Shown in pieces: positions 8,982 to 24,762 of a stretch of 35,309 bases of DNA. How positions within the stretch are numbered: the first letter of the stretch is position 1; each line of letters begins with the position of its first letter. The notes under the pieces were generated by a model that made no database searches, was not told where the DNA came from, and worked only from the letters and a program-made list of their open reading frames with translations. The stretch spans positions 1 to 35,309 of the forward strand of contig JACRHH010000034.1 in NCBI GenBank assembly GCA_016212095.1, in the 5' to 3' direction. The position numbers and the translations under genes were made by a program. Origin of the DNA: Nitrospirota bacterium. Its GTDB lineage: Bacteria > Nitrospirota > Thermodesulfovibrionia > SZUA-242.

Positions 8982-10289
8982 TTGGCCCTGCTTTCGTCGG
9001 TTCAAAATATATTCAAGATAGAGGAACTTAAAAGACGAATCGGATTCACAGTCATGATGCTTGTTGTATACCGGATTGGTGCGCATATTCCAACGCCCGG
9101 GATCAACGGCGAGGAACTGAGTAAATTTCTTCTCGATCAGGGTGGAGCCCTTATGGGCTTCTTCGATATGTTTTCAGGCGGCGCGCTTTCGAGGCTAACA
9201 ATTTTTGCTCTTGGAATCATGCCGTATATCAGCGCATCAATTATACTTCAACTGATGACTGTTGTATTCCCGGCTCTCGGCAAGCTTGCCAAGGAGGGTG
9301 ACTCCGGAAGAAAGAAAATCACGCAGTATACGCGATATGGCACAGTTGTGATCGCTGCGATTCAATCTATAGGTATCGCTGCCGGTATTGAGGGAATGCA
9401 GCAGGGCGCTTTCGTCCAGAACCCCGGATGGAGTTTTCGTTTGATGACGATGATAACTCTGACTTCCGGAACTGCATTTATTATGTGGCTTGGTGAGCAG
9501 ATAACGGAACGCGGCATCGGCAACGGAATTTCGCTCATAATATTTGCTGGCATTGTTGCCAGATTTCCGGCCGGAGTGATTAACTCTATTCGCCTGGTTC
9601 GCGATGAGCAGATTCCCTTGCTGTTGATGATAGTTATTGTAGCCATGATGATAGCTGTGATTGCGCTGATAATATACGTGGAGCGCGGCCAGCGAAGGAT
9701 ACCTGTGCAGTATGCCAAGCGCGTTGTGGGGCGCAAGGTTTACGGTGGTCAAAGCACTCACCTTCCTCTCAAGGTAAACACATCCGGAGTTATTCCTCCG
9801 ATATTTGCATCGTCCATAATCATGTTTCCCGCAACGGTAGCCGGATTCATAGCGATACCATGGGTGCAGTCGATAGCAAAGCAGCTGTCGCCGGGCAATG
9901 CCCTGCATACGATTCTCTATGTCACGATGATCATATTCTTTTCTTTTTTCTACACCGCGATAGTTTTCAATCCGGTTGATATTGCAGAAAACTTAAAAAA
10001 GTATGGCGGTTTTATCCCTGGTGTTCGCCCGGGTAAATTCACCTCCGATTATATATACAAGGTGCTGTCCAGAATTACTTTTGGCGGCGCCGTGTATTTG
10101 GCTGCGGTCTGTGTATTGCCTGAGGTTCTTATAACCAGATTTAATGTGCCGTTTTATTTTGGCGGAACTTCATTGCTCATTGTGGTTGGTGTTGCGCTTG
10201 ACACGGTGTCTCAGATCGAATCACATCTTATAACTCGTTCATATGACGGCTTTCTCAAGAAGGGACGACTGCGAGGCAGGCGTGGATAA
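8982..10289 (+). CDS. secY: Protein translocase subunit SecY
   Basis: A 435-aa integral inner-membrane protein with about ten hydrophobic segments, starting at TTG one base after the rplO stop. The N-terminal RIGFTVMMLVVYRIGAHIPTPGI, the plug and TM2 region with MFSGGALSRLTIFALGIMPYISASI, and the cytoplasmic loops GRKVYGGQSTHLPLKVN and FIPGVRPGK are diagnostic. SecY forms the channel through which SecA or the ribosome exports proteins. adk, which often follows secY, is missing; map comes next after 79 nt. Confidence 0.98.
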   Translation: MALLSSVQNIFKIEELKRRIGFTVMMLVVYRIGAHIPTPGINGEELSKFLLDQGGALMGFFDMFSGGALSRLTIFALGIMPYISASIILQLMTVVFPALGKLAKEGDSGRKKITQYTRYGTVVIAAIQSIGIAAGIEGMQQGAFVQNPGWSFRLMTMITLTSGTAFIMWLGEQITERGIGNGISLIIFAGIVARFPAGVINSIRLVRDEQIPLLLMIVIVAMMIAVIALIIYVERGQRRIPVQYAKRVVGRKVYGGQSTHLPLKVNTSGVIPPIFASSIIMFPATVAGFIAIPWVQSIAKQLSPGNALHTILYVTMIIFFSFFYTAIVFNPVDIAENLKKYGGFIPGVRPGKFTSDYIYKVLSRITFGGAVYLAAVCVLPEVLITRFNVPFYFGGTSLLIVVGVALDTVSQIESHLITRSYDGFLKKGRLRGRRG

Positions 10290-13062: not shown

Positions 13063-14115
13063 ATGGATCTTAGGAAGAAAGGCTTTCAGCTACCCAAAAG
13101 AATACAATTCGATGAGGAAAGCCTTACCGGACGATATGGCAGACTGGTTGCGGAACCCTTTGAGCGTGGTTTCGGTATAACAATCGGTAATTCGCTTCGA
13201 CGGGTAATCCTGTCCTCAATTGAGGGTGCTGCTGTTACCAGTATTCGCATACCGGGTGTTTTGCACGAGTTTGCAAGCGTCGTCGGTGTTCGTGAGGACG
13301 TTACCGACATTATATTGAACGTCAAGAAGCTCAGACTTCTGATGCACGGCTCCGGAGAGCGGAAAATATATGTAAAGGCAAAGGGGCCGAAATCGGTGAC
13401 TGCGGCAGACATTGAAGCCGATAGCGCTATTGAGGTTCTGAATCCGGAACTGTTGCTTGCCACACTCGACAAGGACGCCGACTTCGAAATGGAGATGACG
13501 GTCAGGAAGGGTAGGGGGTTCGTTGCGGCGGAGCAGAACAAGGAAGAGGAGCAACCGCTTGATGTGATTCCGATTGACGCCATTTTTACGCCGATAGAGC
13601 TTTGCAACTATGAGGTTGAGAGCGCTCGCGTCGGACGTTCAACGAATTACGACAGGCTTTACATGGATATTCGGACTGACGGTAGCCTGACGCCTGAAGA
13701 TGCGCTGACTCAGGCTGCCATGATACTCAGCGAGCATCTGGACTACTTCATCATGTCCGAGGAGCCGGAATGTGACGAGTCCGATCCTAACGTTAACTGC
13801 GATGAACGTGATTTTGATGACGAGCCGGCCGTATACAATGATCATCTGCTGAAGAGCGTTGAGGAGCTTGAGCTTTCAGTCCGGGCGTATAATTGCCTGA
13901 AGAACGCCGGCATTAAATCGATAGCCGATCTGGTTCAACGATCTGAGCCGGAGATGCTCAAGACAAAGAACTTTGGACGCAAGTCTCTTAATGAGATTAA
14001 AATGATTCTTAAATCGATGGGCCTTAGGTTCGGTATGCGTATCGACAAGGAGGCTTTTGATAAAGCAATGGCTTCCGGGCTTGTAACCGGAGGAGGTACT
14101 GAAAATGAGGCATAG
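13063..14115 (+). CDS. rpoA: RNA polymerase subunit alpha
   Basis: About 350 aa from ATG 13063, with AGGAGG 6 nt upstream; an ATG 5 codons earlier is in frame but would place that site inside the gene. The N-terminal dimerisation domain includes GRLVAEPFERGFGITIGNSL followed by RRVILSSIEGAAVTSI. The C-terminal domain has LELSVRAYNCLKNAGIKSIA and TKNFGRKSLNEIKMIL, keeping the Arg and Asn that bind UP-element DNA in E. coli. The linker between the domains is acidic and carries two cysteines, making the protein a little longer than the usual 330 or so. rplQ overlaps its end by 11 nt. Confidence 0.98.
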   Translation: MDLRKKGFQLPKRIQFDEESLTGRYGRLVAEPFERGFGITIGNSLRRVILSSIEGAAVTSIRIPGVLHEFASVVGVREDVTDIILNVKKLRLLMHGSGERKIYVKAKGPKSVTAADIEADSAIEVLNPELLLATLDKDADFEMEMTVRKGRGFVAAEQNKEEEQPLDVIPIDAIFTPIELCNYEVESARVGRSTNYDRLYMDIRTDGSLTPEDALTQAAMILSEHLDYFIMSEEPECDESDPNVNCDERDFDDEPAVYNDHLLKSVEELELSVRAYNCLKNAGIKSIADLVQRSEPEMLKTKNFGRKSLNEIKMILKSMGLRFGMRIDKEAFDKAMASGLVTGGGTENEA

Positions 14116-14512
14116 TGTAGCTGGAAGGAATTTTGGCCGTAATTGTGGACACCGAAAGGCTCTTTTGAGGAATCTGGTGACATCCCTTTTTGAGCATCAG
14201 CGCATCGAAACAACCGTATCGAAAGCGAAGGAAATTCGTTCCATAGCAGAGAAGATGGTTACGCTTGGCGTTCGTGGAGATCAGCACGCGCGGCGCAAGG
14301 TGATGGAGTATGTTTACACCAAGCAGGCAGTTGGCATACTTTTCAATGATGTGGCGCCAAGGATGAAAGGTCGTCCGGGCGGTTATCTGAGGATGATGAA
14401 GACCGGTTACAGGCCCGGAGACTGTTCTGAAATGGCGATACTTGAGTTTGTGGATTATGTCAGGAAGGAGCCGGTTGCAGCGCCGGCGACTGAAGAAGAG
14501 AAAAAGGCTTGA
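14105..14512 (+). CDS. rplQ: 50S ribosomal protein L17
   Basis: A 135-aa L17. RNLVTSLFEHQRIETTVSKA, the segment KEIRSIAEKMVTLG and the C-terminal KTGYRPGDCSEMAILEFVD are typical. The last 15 residues are a low-complexity A/E/K tail. It overlaps rpoA by 11 nt (ribosome binding site GGAGG inside rpoA) and ends the ribosomal superoperon, apart from the small gene that follows. Confidence 0.97.
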   Translation: MRHSVAGRNFGRNCGHRKALLRNLVTSLFEHQRIETTVSKAKEIRSIAEKMVTLGVRGDQHARRKVMEYVYTKQAVGILFNDVAPRMKGRPGGYLRMMKTGYRPGDCSEMAILEFVDYVRKEPVAAPATEEEKKA

Positions 14513-14538
14513 TATTGAGCTGATTTCAGGAGCATGTA

Positions 14539-14679
14539 ATGTCTGACTGGTTGACGGCTTTAGTAGTAATAGGCGTATATCTGGTGCTTCAGTTGGTGGT
14601 GTTCCCACGGCTTGGAGTGCCTACCTGACGAACCGTTGGAACATCGACGTGTTCGGTGGACAAGAAAACGAATAAATAA
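14539..14679 (+). CDS. Small single-span membrane protein; possible selenoprotein (in-frame UGA)
   Basis: ATG 14539 has an AGGAG site 6 nt upstream. The first 29 codons encode MSDWLTALVVIGVYLVLQLV followed by VFPRLGVPT: one transmembrane helix and a short cytosolic or periplasmic tail. UGA at 14626-14628 could simply end the gene. However, the frame stays open for 16 more codons (RTVGTSTCSVDKKTNK) to TAA 14677-14679, bringing in a cysteine and a soluble lysine-rich end. The UGA is followed at once by a 10-bp hairpin. This layout fits selenocysteine insertion, giving a 46-aa product with Sec30. I do not know the function. The gene being real is more certain than the read-through. Confidence 0.55.
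14629..14655 (+). promoter_or_regulatory. Hairpin directly after the in-frame UGA (SECIS-like candidate)
   Basis: Left arm CGAACCGTTG (14629-14638), loop GAACAT, right arm CGACG, a bulged T at 14650, then GTTCG (14651-14655). That is 10 base pairs with one G-U pair, starting immediately after UGA 14626-14628. A bulged U and a G at the first loop position recall bacterial SECIS elements, but the bulge is on the 3' side and the loop starts only 10 nt after UGA, closer than in known cases. An alternative fold (GAACA with TGTTC) puts the loop 15 nt after UGA. Confidence 0.45.
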
Positions 14680-21420: not shown

Positions 21421-24400
21421 ATGCCGCGCATCTTCGACAACATCGAACTCGATCTTCTTCCGGCGCTGCGGGAAACTCTGGAGCTTGCCGAACGCTCCGA
21501 TTTCTGCGTCGGCTACTTCAACCTGCGCGGCTGGAAATCTATTGACGATCTTGTTGAGCAATGGGCGGGCGGGCCGGACAAGCAATGCCGATTGCTTGTC
21601 GGCATGCAGCGGCTGCCGCAGGATGATCTGCGTGAGGCCTACAGCCTCCTGCCAAACGAGGATCAAATGAGCAACCAGACGGTAATTCGTCTGAAACGCC
21701 GTTTGGCGGAGGAGTTCCGAGCCCAACTCACGATCGGCGCTCCCACAGATGGCGACGAAGCAGGCTTGCGGCGACTGTCCGGGCAGCTCAAAACAGGCAA
21801 GGTGGTCGTGAAGCTTTTTCTCCGGCACACGCTCCACGCAAAGCTCTACCTCTGCTTCCGTACAGACCCGAACAATCCTGTCACAGGTTTTCTAGGTTCC
21901 AGCAATCTCACTCTGTCCGGCCTTTCAAGACAGGGCGAACTGAATGTCGATGTGCTCGACCACGACGCCACGCGGAAGCTTGCCAAATGGTTTGAAGACC
22001 GCTGGGGCGACAGGTGGTGCGTGGACATCACGAAGGAACTGATTCAAGTCATCGACGAAAGCTGGGCGCGCGAGCTGCCGATTCCGCCATATCACATTTA
22101 TGTGAAGATGGCCTACCATCTGGCCGAGGAAGCGCGGGCCGGCCTGTCGGAGTTCAGTATTCCGGCTGATATGCGCGGAATTCTCCTTGAATTTCAGTCC
22201 GCGGCTGTTCGCATTGCGGCAAGGCATCTGGAAAAGCGCGGCGGCGTCATCCTCGGCGATGTCGTCGGGCTTGGCAAAACCCTGATGGCGACCGCGCTGG
22301 CGCGCATGTTTCAAGACCCGCCGCGCTCACTTGAAACGCTCATTCTTTGCCCGAAGAATCTCGTCGGCATGTGGGAGGACTACGGCTATCGCTATCGACT
22401 TTTCCCAAAAGTGGTCTCAATAACGCAAGCGCAAAACGTTCTGCCGGATCTTCCTCGTTACCGCCTGGTTATTATTGACGAGAGCCACAATCTGCGAAAC
22501 CGGGAAGGCAGGCGATGGTCTGTCATCCGGGATTACATTGTCCGAAACGACAGCCGCTGCATCCTGCTTTCGGCCACGCCGTACAACAAGGCCTATCTCG
22601 ATCTGGCCAACCAGCTTCGCCTTTTTCTGAGTCCCGATGACGTTGTCGGCATTAGGCCCGAAGAATACCTTCGTCGTGATTGCGACGGACGCGCCGACGA
22701 ATTCACGCGCCGTCATCAATGCCCGCTCAACTGTCTTGCCGCTTTTGAAAAGAGCGAGCACCCAGACGACTGGCGGGAGTTGATGCGCCTGTTCATGGTT
22801 CGCCGCACCCGCAGTTTTGTGGAGAGGAATTATGCGCTCACCCAGTGTCCGTCATGCTCCGCCAATTTGATGGCCACTCAGTCACGGTGTCCTCAATGTG
22901 GCCGGTGCAGGGAAGCCACTGATCGTCGTTTTCTGGCGCTTGAAGGCGGAACACGGTTTCATTTTCCGAAGCGGCAGCCCATGGCGCTTACCTTCAGCAT
23001 TCGTGACAACGATCCGGACGACCCATACGCCAGACTTTACTCGGACGCGGTTGTGGATCATATACGTCATCTCCATCTGCCGCGCTACGGTCTGGGCAAT
23101 TACCTGAAACCTGCATTCAACGCGCCGCCACATTCTTCGCAACTTTATCTGCCTGCACGCGCTGGAAAACGGCCTGCCGCTTCCAGTGGGCACGCAGGAT
23201 TCCGTGCTGTTCGACACGCGCGCCGACGACGCCGATCACGATGCCCAGACCACCGGCGCGCTCTTTGGAGGGGATGACAACGGCAGCGACGACCCGGATA
23301 ATGAGGCATCCGGACTTGATGCGTTTGCCGCTGAGGCCGCCAACGCCTATCGGCTTCTCCGCGAGGAACGCCGGAAACTCTTCGACTGGCTCCGGTCTGA
23401 CCTGTTCATCGAAAACCTTGCGAAGCATCTTCGCGAGGATGCGGAAAGACTGTATTCACTTCTGCAACTTGCCGGCGACTGGGAACCGGGCAAAGACAGG
23501 AAGCTCGCCAAGCTGGCGGAACTTCTCACGGAAACGCATTCCGGCGAAAAAGTGCTCGTTTTCTCCCAGTTTGCCGACACCGTCTGTTATCTGACCGGCC
23601 AGTTGCGAAGCCAGGGAATCCGGAATCTTGCCGGAGTCACCGGCGACGCCGAGAATCCGACGGAGGCGGCCCGGCGTTTCAGCCCTGAAAGCAACAATGC
23701 GAGAGAACACGTTCCGCCTGCCGACGAACTGCGGGTTCTTGTTGCCACGGATGTGCTTAGCGAGGGGCAGAACCTTCAGGATGCTTCGATCATAGTCAAC
23801 TACGATCTTCCGTGGGCCATCATCCGCCTCATCCAGAGAGAGCGGGCCGCGTGGATCGCATCGGGCAGCGGGCAGAGCGGATTCACTGCTACTCGTTTCT
23901 TCCAGCCGATGGCGTTGAGCGGCTTATCCGCCTGCGGGCGCGCGTTCGCCAGCGTCTTCAGGAGAATGCCGAGGTTGTGGGAACCGACGAGGCTTTCTTT
24001 GAAGACGAACGCCACGACGGCCTGCTTCACGACCTGTTCACCGAAAAGTCCGGCATTCTCGACGACCCGGAGGACAACGAGGTGGATCTTTCGTCACTGG
24101 CCTACCAGATATGGAAGAACGCAACCGACGCTGATTCGTCGCTAAAAAAAATCATTCCCGAACTGCCGGATGTGGTCTTTTCCACAAAAGCCATCGCCTC
24201 CGTTTCCACGAAACCCGAAAAGCCGGCGGGCGTCATGGTGTATGTCCGCACAGCCGACGACAACGACGCGCTGGCCTGGGTGGACGAGGAAGGCCGAACT
24301 GTTACCGAAAGCCAGCATGAAATCCTTCGCGCCGCCGCCTGCGATCCGGTAACGCTGCCGCTCCAGCGGCTGCCAAACCACCACCCGCTTGTGCGGAAAG

Positions 24401-24762
24401 CGGTTGAGGGTATCCAGAGCGAGAATTTCAACACCGGCGGCCAGCTCGGCAAGCCCGCCGCAGCCCGCCGACGGGTATATGACCGCCTCAAGGACTACGC
24501 GGCGGGCGTGAAAGGCACGCTCTTTGACGTCAGGCAGTTGCATCAGGCCATCGCCGCCATCTACGATAATCCGCTGACAGAGGCCAGCCGGGATATTCTT
24601 AACCGCGAGATGCGCGCCGGGATTGCCGACGAAAAACTTGTGGAGCTTGTTCTGTCCCTGCACGAGGAGGATCGCTTGTGTGTTCCGAAAGATGACGCCA
24701 AGGCAAGAGAGCCACGGATTATATGCTCGCTCGGAATCGCCAGGGAAAGGCCAACCACATGA
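21421..24762 (+). pseudogene. PLD plus SNF2-type helicase of a defence/restriction system, disrupted
   Basis: The gene runs through three open segments: 21421 to about 23110 (frame 1), about 23111 to 23840 (frame 2), and about 23840 to 24762 (frame 1 again). The N-terminal part has a phospholipase-D-like nuclease motif (HAKLYLC from His139, then [10 protein letters not shown]). The helicase core has Walker [10 protein letters not shown] (279-287), DESH (353-356), LLSATPYN, a CPSC/CPQC zinc finger, and motif VI split across the second break (LIQR, then RAGRVDRIGQ). Between GLGNYLKP and RHILRNF about 45-50 residues usual in this family seem missing, so the first break looks like a deletion. The second is an extra 2 nt in an AG repeat (23835-23842). 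An assembly error is possible. Partner proteins are usually large adenine methylases, matching the gene at 25290. Confidence 0.85.

Follow-up and report, generated by a model that had tools for sequence, protein, structure and literature searches.

The window analysed here is the whole stretch of 35,309 nt of contig JACRHH010000034.1 from a Nitrospirota bacterium. It holds a ribosomal-protein cluster that includes secY (8982-10289, assigned from its translation) and is closed by rplQ. After a gap of 26 nt, rplQ is followed by the ATG of a very short gene (Table 1), which consists of 29 codons, an in-frame UGA and 16 further open codons leading to TAA. The first-pass annotation of this DNA had singled out the gene as a candidate selenoprotein, in view of a good ribosome binding site and the open stretch beyond the UGA; AGGAG indeed precedes the ATG, and translation bears out the coordinates of the UGA, the open codons and the TAA. 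With the UGA counted as residue 30, the read-through product translated from the window is MSDWLTALVVIGVYLVLQLVVFPRLGVPT-U-RTVGTSTCSVDKKTNK. The mean Kyte-Doolittle value of its hydrophobic helix is 2.41 (2.50 across the family described below), and the charge is -0.9 before the helix and +3.8 after it. Residues P23, G26 and U30 are invariant among 30 aligned homologs.

Table 1. Features of the predicted selenoprotein locus in the window
Feature	Positions	Strand	Basis
rplQ (ribosomal protein L17)	14105..14512	+	Open reading frame; closes the ribosomal-protein cluster; used as tblastn query
Shine-Dalgarno-like CAGGAG	14528..14533	+	Sequence, 5' of the start codon
Predicted selenoprotein gene, 46 codons with UGA as Sec, plus TAA	14539..14679	+	Translation; 135 homologs
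Single hydrophobic helix LTALVVIGVYLVLQLVVFP, probably transmembrane	14551..14607	+	19 residues scored
Conserved motif RLGVPT-U (family FP[RK][LFM]G[VI]xT-U)	14608..14628	+	Aligned homologs
UGA, predicted to be read as selenocysteine	14626..14628	+	TGA in 135/135 homologs; Cys in homologs from other phyla
10-bp hairpin with bulged U	14629..14655	+	Minimum-free-energy fold; not conserved
Predicted bacterial SECIS, stem CAUCGA/UCGGUG, loop CGUGU (14648-14652)	14642..14658	+	Covariation; 19 nt after the UGA
UGU codon for tail Cys (U+8), within the SECIS loop	14650..14652	+	Sequence
Predicted true stop codon TAA	14677..14679	+	Homologs terminate with TAA, TGA or TAG

Homologs and the in-frame UGA codon

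When the read-through protein was compared with 100 relatives, the matches continued across one in-frame TGA. Profile A1, built from 30 homologs and searched over 230 genomes of the bacterium's class, yielded 135 homologs, which belong to 15 taxonomic families; the raw tally of 136 includes one chance match, and each of the 135 loci kept was read in frame. The Sec position is occupied by TGA in all 135, and by TAA or TAG in none. A preference for TGA as stop codon would not account for this, because the final stops of these genes are spread over TAA (53), TGA (41) and TAG (39), with two unreached in the sequence read. If each of the 15 families is counted once and the TGA stop frequency is taken as 0.31, the chance of an all-TGA column is about 2e-8, a rough figure that assumes independence of the families. 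In all, 135 of the 230 class genomes hold a very small predicted membrane selenoprotein of this family, whose product is 43-46 residues long in many members. In a sample of 396 genomes from the phylum, no homolog at E <= 0.001 fell outside the class. One match with a TAA, in genome G030, has coordinates similar to those of the ribosomal cluster; it lacks the motif and was set aside as chance; weak stop-free matches inspected as candidate Cys paralogs inside the class likewise look like chance.

The sequence after the UGA behaves as coding sequence. In the continuing frame, 135/135 homologs have 13 or more open codons (in the other two frames 118 and 51), which is far beyond the chance opening that the first pass had allowed for with 16 codons, and the outcome in which all homologs end at this position with nothing conserved behind it did not hold. 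Substitutions between near relatives number 120/117/229 at tail codon positions 1, 2 and 3, and synonymous changes make up 39% of the changed tail codons, where random single changes would give 22%. A tail Cys is present in 125 of the 135 homologs, and ten tails are without one. The first tail Cys stands at U+8 in 50 members (motif K-G/E-T/S-C-S-P), at U+13 to U+15 in 70, whose tails end in KKC or KKCK, and at other positions in five. The tail is divergent across homologs, and the 29-residue part is the better conserved of the two; some of the tail conservation may reflect RNA rather than protein constraint.

A motif scan of named genomes, with Cys encoded in the motif, revealed homologs (L047-L054 and L056) in MAGs labelled Deltaproteobacteria (Zodletone and others), Acidobacteriia/Bryobacterales, Chloroflexi and Cyanobacteriota; L055, from Sphaerisporangium, was left out of the real relatives. 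An example is MNDLALYGIILGIWFVLQLWVFPKLGIPTCMSGACGVP, where Cys stands at the UGA position in the string PTCMSGAC. These proteins share with the window gene the helix and the FP/LP[RK]xGxPT motif, and have Cys exactly where it has Sec, which is the substitution that the first-pass annotation had proposed to look for at position 30. They differ in the Cys pattern, which is Cys-x4-Cys in place of the U-x7-C or C-terminal Cys of the window family. In profile-profile comparison, columns 1-33 align (E 9.8e-22), with U30 opposite Cys, and a profile of the Cys proteins, with no class member in it, recovers the UGA genes in 120/230 class genomes. The same profile found no separate Cys copy in the 230 class genomes.

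Selenocysteine machinery and the predicted SECIS element

The source genome, of 2.97 Mb in 39 contigs and listed as 100% complete, contains all four genes selA, selB, selC and selD, of which the absence of selB or selC would have spoken against the first-pass proposal. SelA and SelB match at 620.9 and 362.8 bits, respectively, and tRNA-Sec, with anticodon TCA, at 73.8 bits; SelD (G000:C31:24107-25033) has an in-frame TGA of its own. Two genes of the FdhA family (formate-dehydrogenase type) also have in-frame TGA, in the contexts VEHQARI-U-HSATVA and VDHCARY-U-HSATVA, and in both a hairpin stands 3' of the TGA, ~18-23 nt from it. Since selA, selB, selC, selD and the FdhA-type TGA genes are all present, this organism very probably recodes UGA. 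SelB is found in 127 of the 135 homolog-positive genomes, and tRNA-Sec in 6 of the remaining 8; this co-occurrence adds little, because SelB is present in 206/230 class genomes.

Class families f10 (genus g15) and f4 have SelB in nearly all genomes and tRNA-Sec in many, and none of their genomes has the selenoprotein gene (one weak match in f4 is due to chance); its absence there is therefore a loss, or the gene a late gain, within a Sec-using class. The source genome also holds a second tRNA-Sec-like gene (G000:C5:13412-13509, or L002:1501-1598), which scores 50.6 bits, above the Rfam cut-off, and was not called by ARAGORN. It has a long variable arm and the loop CTGCAAA, which gives the anticodon GCA (Cys), and presumably resembles the selC*-type tRNA-Cys.

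Two hairpins can form after the UGA. The one noticed in the first pass, of 10 bp, exists and begins at the base after the UGA, and it is not the recoding signal. Its minimum free energy is -12.4 kcal/mol (z = -1.14), 24/200 shuffled sequences fold at least as well, and across the 135 homologs its positions pair in 45.8% of cases against 47.2 +/- 0.9% in shuffled sequences, i.e., at background level; as a SECIS it was rejected. Alignment of the post-UGA sequence of 24 diverse members revealed another hairpin, with a conserved stem of 5-6 bp and a loop CGUGY or CGGGN. Its covariation scores 0.722, shuffled alignments give 0.203, and 0/500 shuffles reach 0.722; all six stem pairs have two-sided changes, and sliding the partner strand destroys the covariation. 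Over all 135 homologs, the pairs of this stem form in 78.8% of cells versus 57.8 +/- 1.0% after shuffling, and a hairpin scan by fixed rules places the start of the best loop 19-20 nt after the UGA in 88/135. Lineages with the CGGGN loop have Gly at the loop codon and Cys mostly at the C-terminus. A scan of the window with Rfam gave nothing at the gathering threshold.

The model of bacterial SECIS calls for a loop of 3-9 nt, a stem of 4-16 bp, a G as first or second loop nucleotide, a spacing of 16-37 nt from the UGA, and an energy of -7.5 kcal/mol or below (PMC13188914). The window hairpin fits the geometry, with a 5-nt loop, a 6-bp stem, G as second loop nucleotide and 19 nt of spacing; its energy is borderline, at -5.9 kcal/mol for the core, which is weak alone, and about -7.4 with outer pairs. 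The objection that the loop lies only 10 nt from the UGA falls away, because it concerned the 10-bp hairpin, and the loop of the overlapping one, taken here as the SECIS, is 19 nt distant. The two hairpins overlap and are mutually exclusive, and masking at least the first 6 nucleotides, counted from the UGA, leaves the SECIS as the best fold. A ribosome with the UGA in its A site would presumably leave the SECIS region free; covering the first nucleotides after the UGA, it would block the 10-bp hairpin and so allow the SECIS to form. SelB with Sec-tRNA(Sec) would then decode the UGA, directed by this element.

Could the UGA be an ordinary stop, which ends a 29-residue membrane peptide and is followed by a conserved 3' RNA element, such as a terminator or a regulator of the ribosomal operon? 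The hairpin is genuinely conserved, most copies of the gene (112/135) lie directly behind rplQ, and the 29 residues are better conserved than the tail, all of which would suit such an arrangement. We nevertheless regard it as very improbable, given the uniform TGA with no TAA or TAG, the always-open frame in which changes favour synonymous sites, the homologs elsewhere that continue through the position with Cys, and the hairpin itself, which is kept where the gene follows a secG, DsbC-like or FKBP gene instead of rplQ. In favour of readthrough of the UGA as Cys or Trp, by an altered code or a suppressor tRNA, one can cite the Cys homologs and the tRNA-Sec-like gene with the GCA anticodon. That anticodon cannot read UGA, however, and TGA terminates 41 homologs of the same gene; SelA, SelB, SelD and the canonical UCA tRNA-Sec are encoded in the genome, and the hairpin fits the SECIS model, so that decoding by Cys or Trp seems extremely improbable. 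The homology, the conserved UGA and tail, the covarying hairpin and the Sec machinery are established by computation. We strongly infer, with a probability of about 0.95, judging from sequence, that the 46-residue gene encodes a single-helix membrane selenoprotein, the UGA of which is decoded as Sec.

Relation to known selenoprotein families

In its general features, i.e., an in-frame UGA, a hairpin 3' of it whose small loop contains G, and a full Sec machinery, the predicted gene resembles other bacterial selenoproteins, such as FdhA of the same genome. These are, however, large enzymes or proteins of thioredoxin fold, and the window gene has 46 residues, one helix, no thioredoxin fold and no family model. 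No Pfam or NCBIfam model matches the family (30 members scanned against NCBIfam). Among the 119 prokaryotic selenoprotein families of a 2026 inventory (PMC13188914, Table 1), no single-helix PT-U entry was found by name or motif; the distinction from these entries is one of name and motif, with sequences compared only through NCBIfam. Families from the two Haft papers are included in that inventory, many with NCBIfam accessions, and are thereby covered indirectly. KCU-star, CC/Se-motif and similar families (PMC13188914) were likewise predicted from in-frame UGA in genes that annotation tends to truncate, but their motifs are different and the 30 members compared against NCBIfam show no sequence match to them. 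A literature search on selenoproteins with rplQ, Nitrospirota or Thermodesulfovibrio returned nothing relevant, and a PDB sequence search gave only chance helix matches, which were discarded.

This is apparently an unlisted family of bacterial selenoproteins, of a very small membrane type. It escapes standard annotation because, with the UGA taken as stop, only a 29-residue ORF remains. At 43-46 residues, many of its members would rank among the smallest selenoproteins, and the selenocysteine of the family would lie where a bare membrane helix ends, not in a thioredoxin fold. The family also indicates that a SECIS and the codon of the putative partner Cys can share nucleotides; lineages with a different loop usually put that Cys near the C-terminus.

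Gene neighbourhoods and possible function

The usual place of the gene behind rplQ suggests a housekeeping role rather than specialised catabolism. Copies away from rplQ belong mainly to two families. In one of these, the order is tpiA-secG-gene in the members inspected; in the other, the gene lies behind a DsbC/DsbG-like gene in two members and behind an FKBP isomerase gene in one. In four MAGs, the Cys homolog stands immediately before a CcdA/DsbD gene and not by ribosomal genes, and upstream, where clearly readable, are thioredoxin and DUF6132 genes. One further Cys homolog (L053) adjoins genes for a rhodanese and a metallo-beta-lactamase/rhodanese protein.

The predicted Sec would sit just outside the helix, and its usual partner would be the one Cys of the short lysine-rich tail. 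The SECIS loop itself supplies the codon of this Cys where it stands at U+8; in the other arrangement, the Cys is close to the C-terminus. The motif and the gene neighbours are what points to a selenol/thiol relay, anchored in the membrane, that would exchange electrons with partners of the thioredoxin and CcdA/DsbD types and take part in the handling of disulfides in the envelope, and we put the odds of such a function at roughly even. The charge distribution suggests that Sec faces the cytosol. Such an orientation would suit transfer between thioredoxin in the cytosol and a reductase in the membrane; it is less easily reconciled with a disulfide role in the periplasm.

In the alternative, the selenoprotein is real, and its Sec/Cys pair binds metal or detoxifies sulfide, persulfide or peroxide. 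The rhodanese-type neighbours of L053 and the ten tails that have no second Cys are in line with this, but the thioredoxin, CcdA/DsbD, Sec-containing DsbC-like, secG and peptidyl-prolyl isomerase neighbours favour thiol-disulfide and envelope functions, and we consider a metal or detoxification role possible though rather unlikely. A relay function can be spelled out more fully: the minimal membrane selenoprotein, usually encoded behind rplQ, may act as a selenol relay that links thioredoxin in the cytosol with the disulfide chemistry of the envelope, at the Sec translocon or close to it, with the SECIS loop doubling as the codon of the resolving Cys. In this complete form, the proposal is tentative, and less likely than not.

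Several observations concern other genes. The DsbC/DsbG-like gene upstream of the family member in L120 and L138 (family f18) has an in-frame TGA in its active site (FDDPE-U-PYC or FDDPD-U-PHC), and is probably another selenoprotein. In one CcdA operon, a small DUF6132 membrane protein is encoded between thioredoxin and the Cys homolog (L047:2767-2973), and possibly belongs to the same redox module. Elsewhere in the window, at 21421-24762, a gene for a SNF2-like helicase, assigned by eye from translations, is spread over overlapping ORFs in different frames (21421-23277, 23186-24145 and 23812-24762), a breakage that we attribute to frameshifts or sequencing errors.
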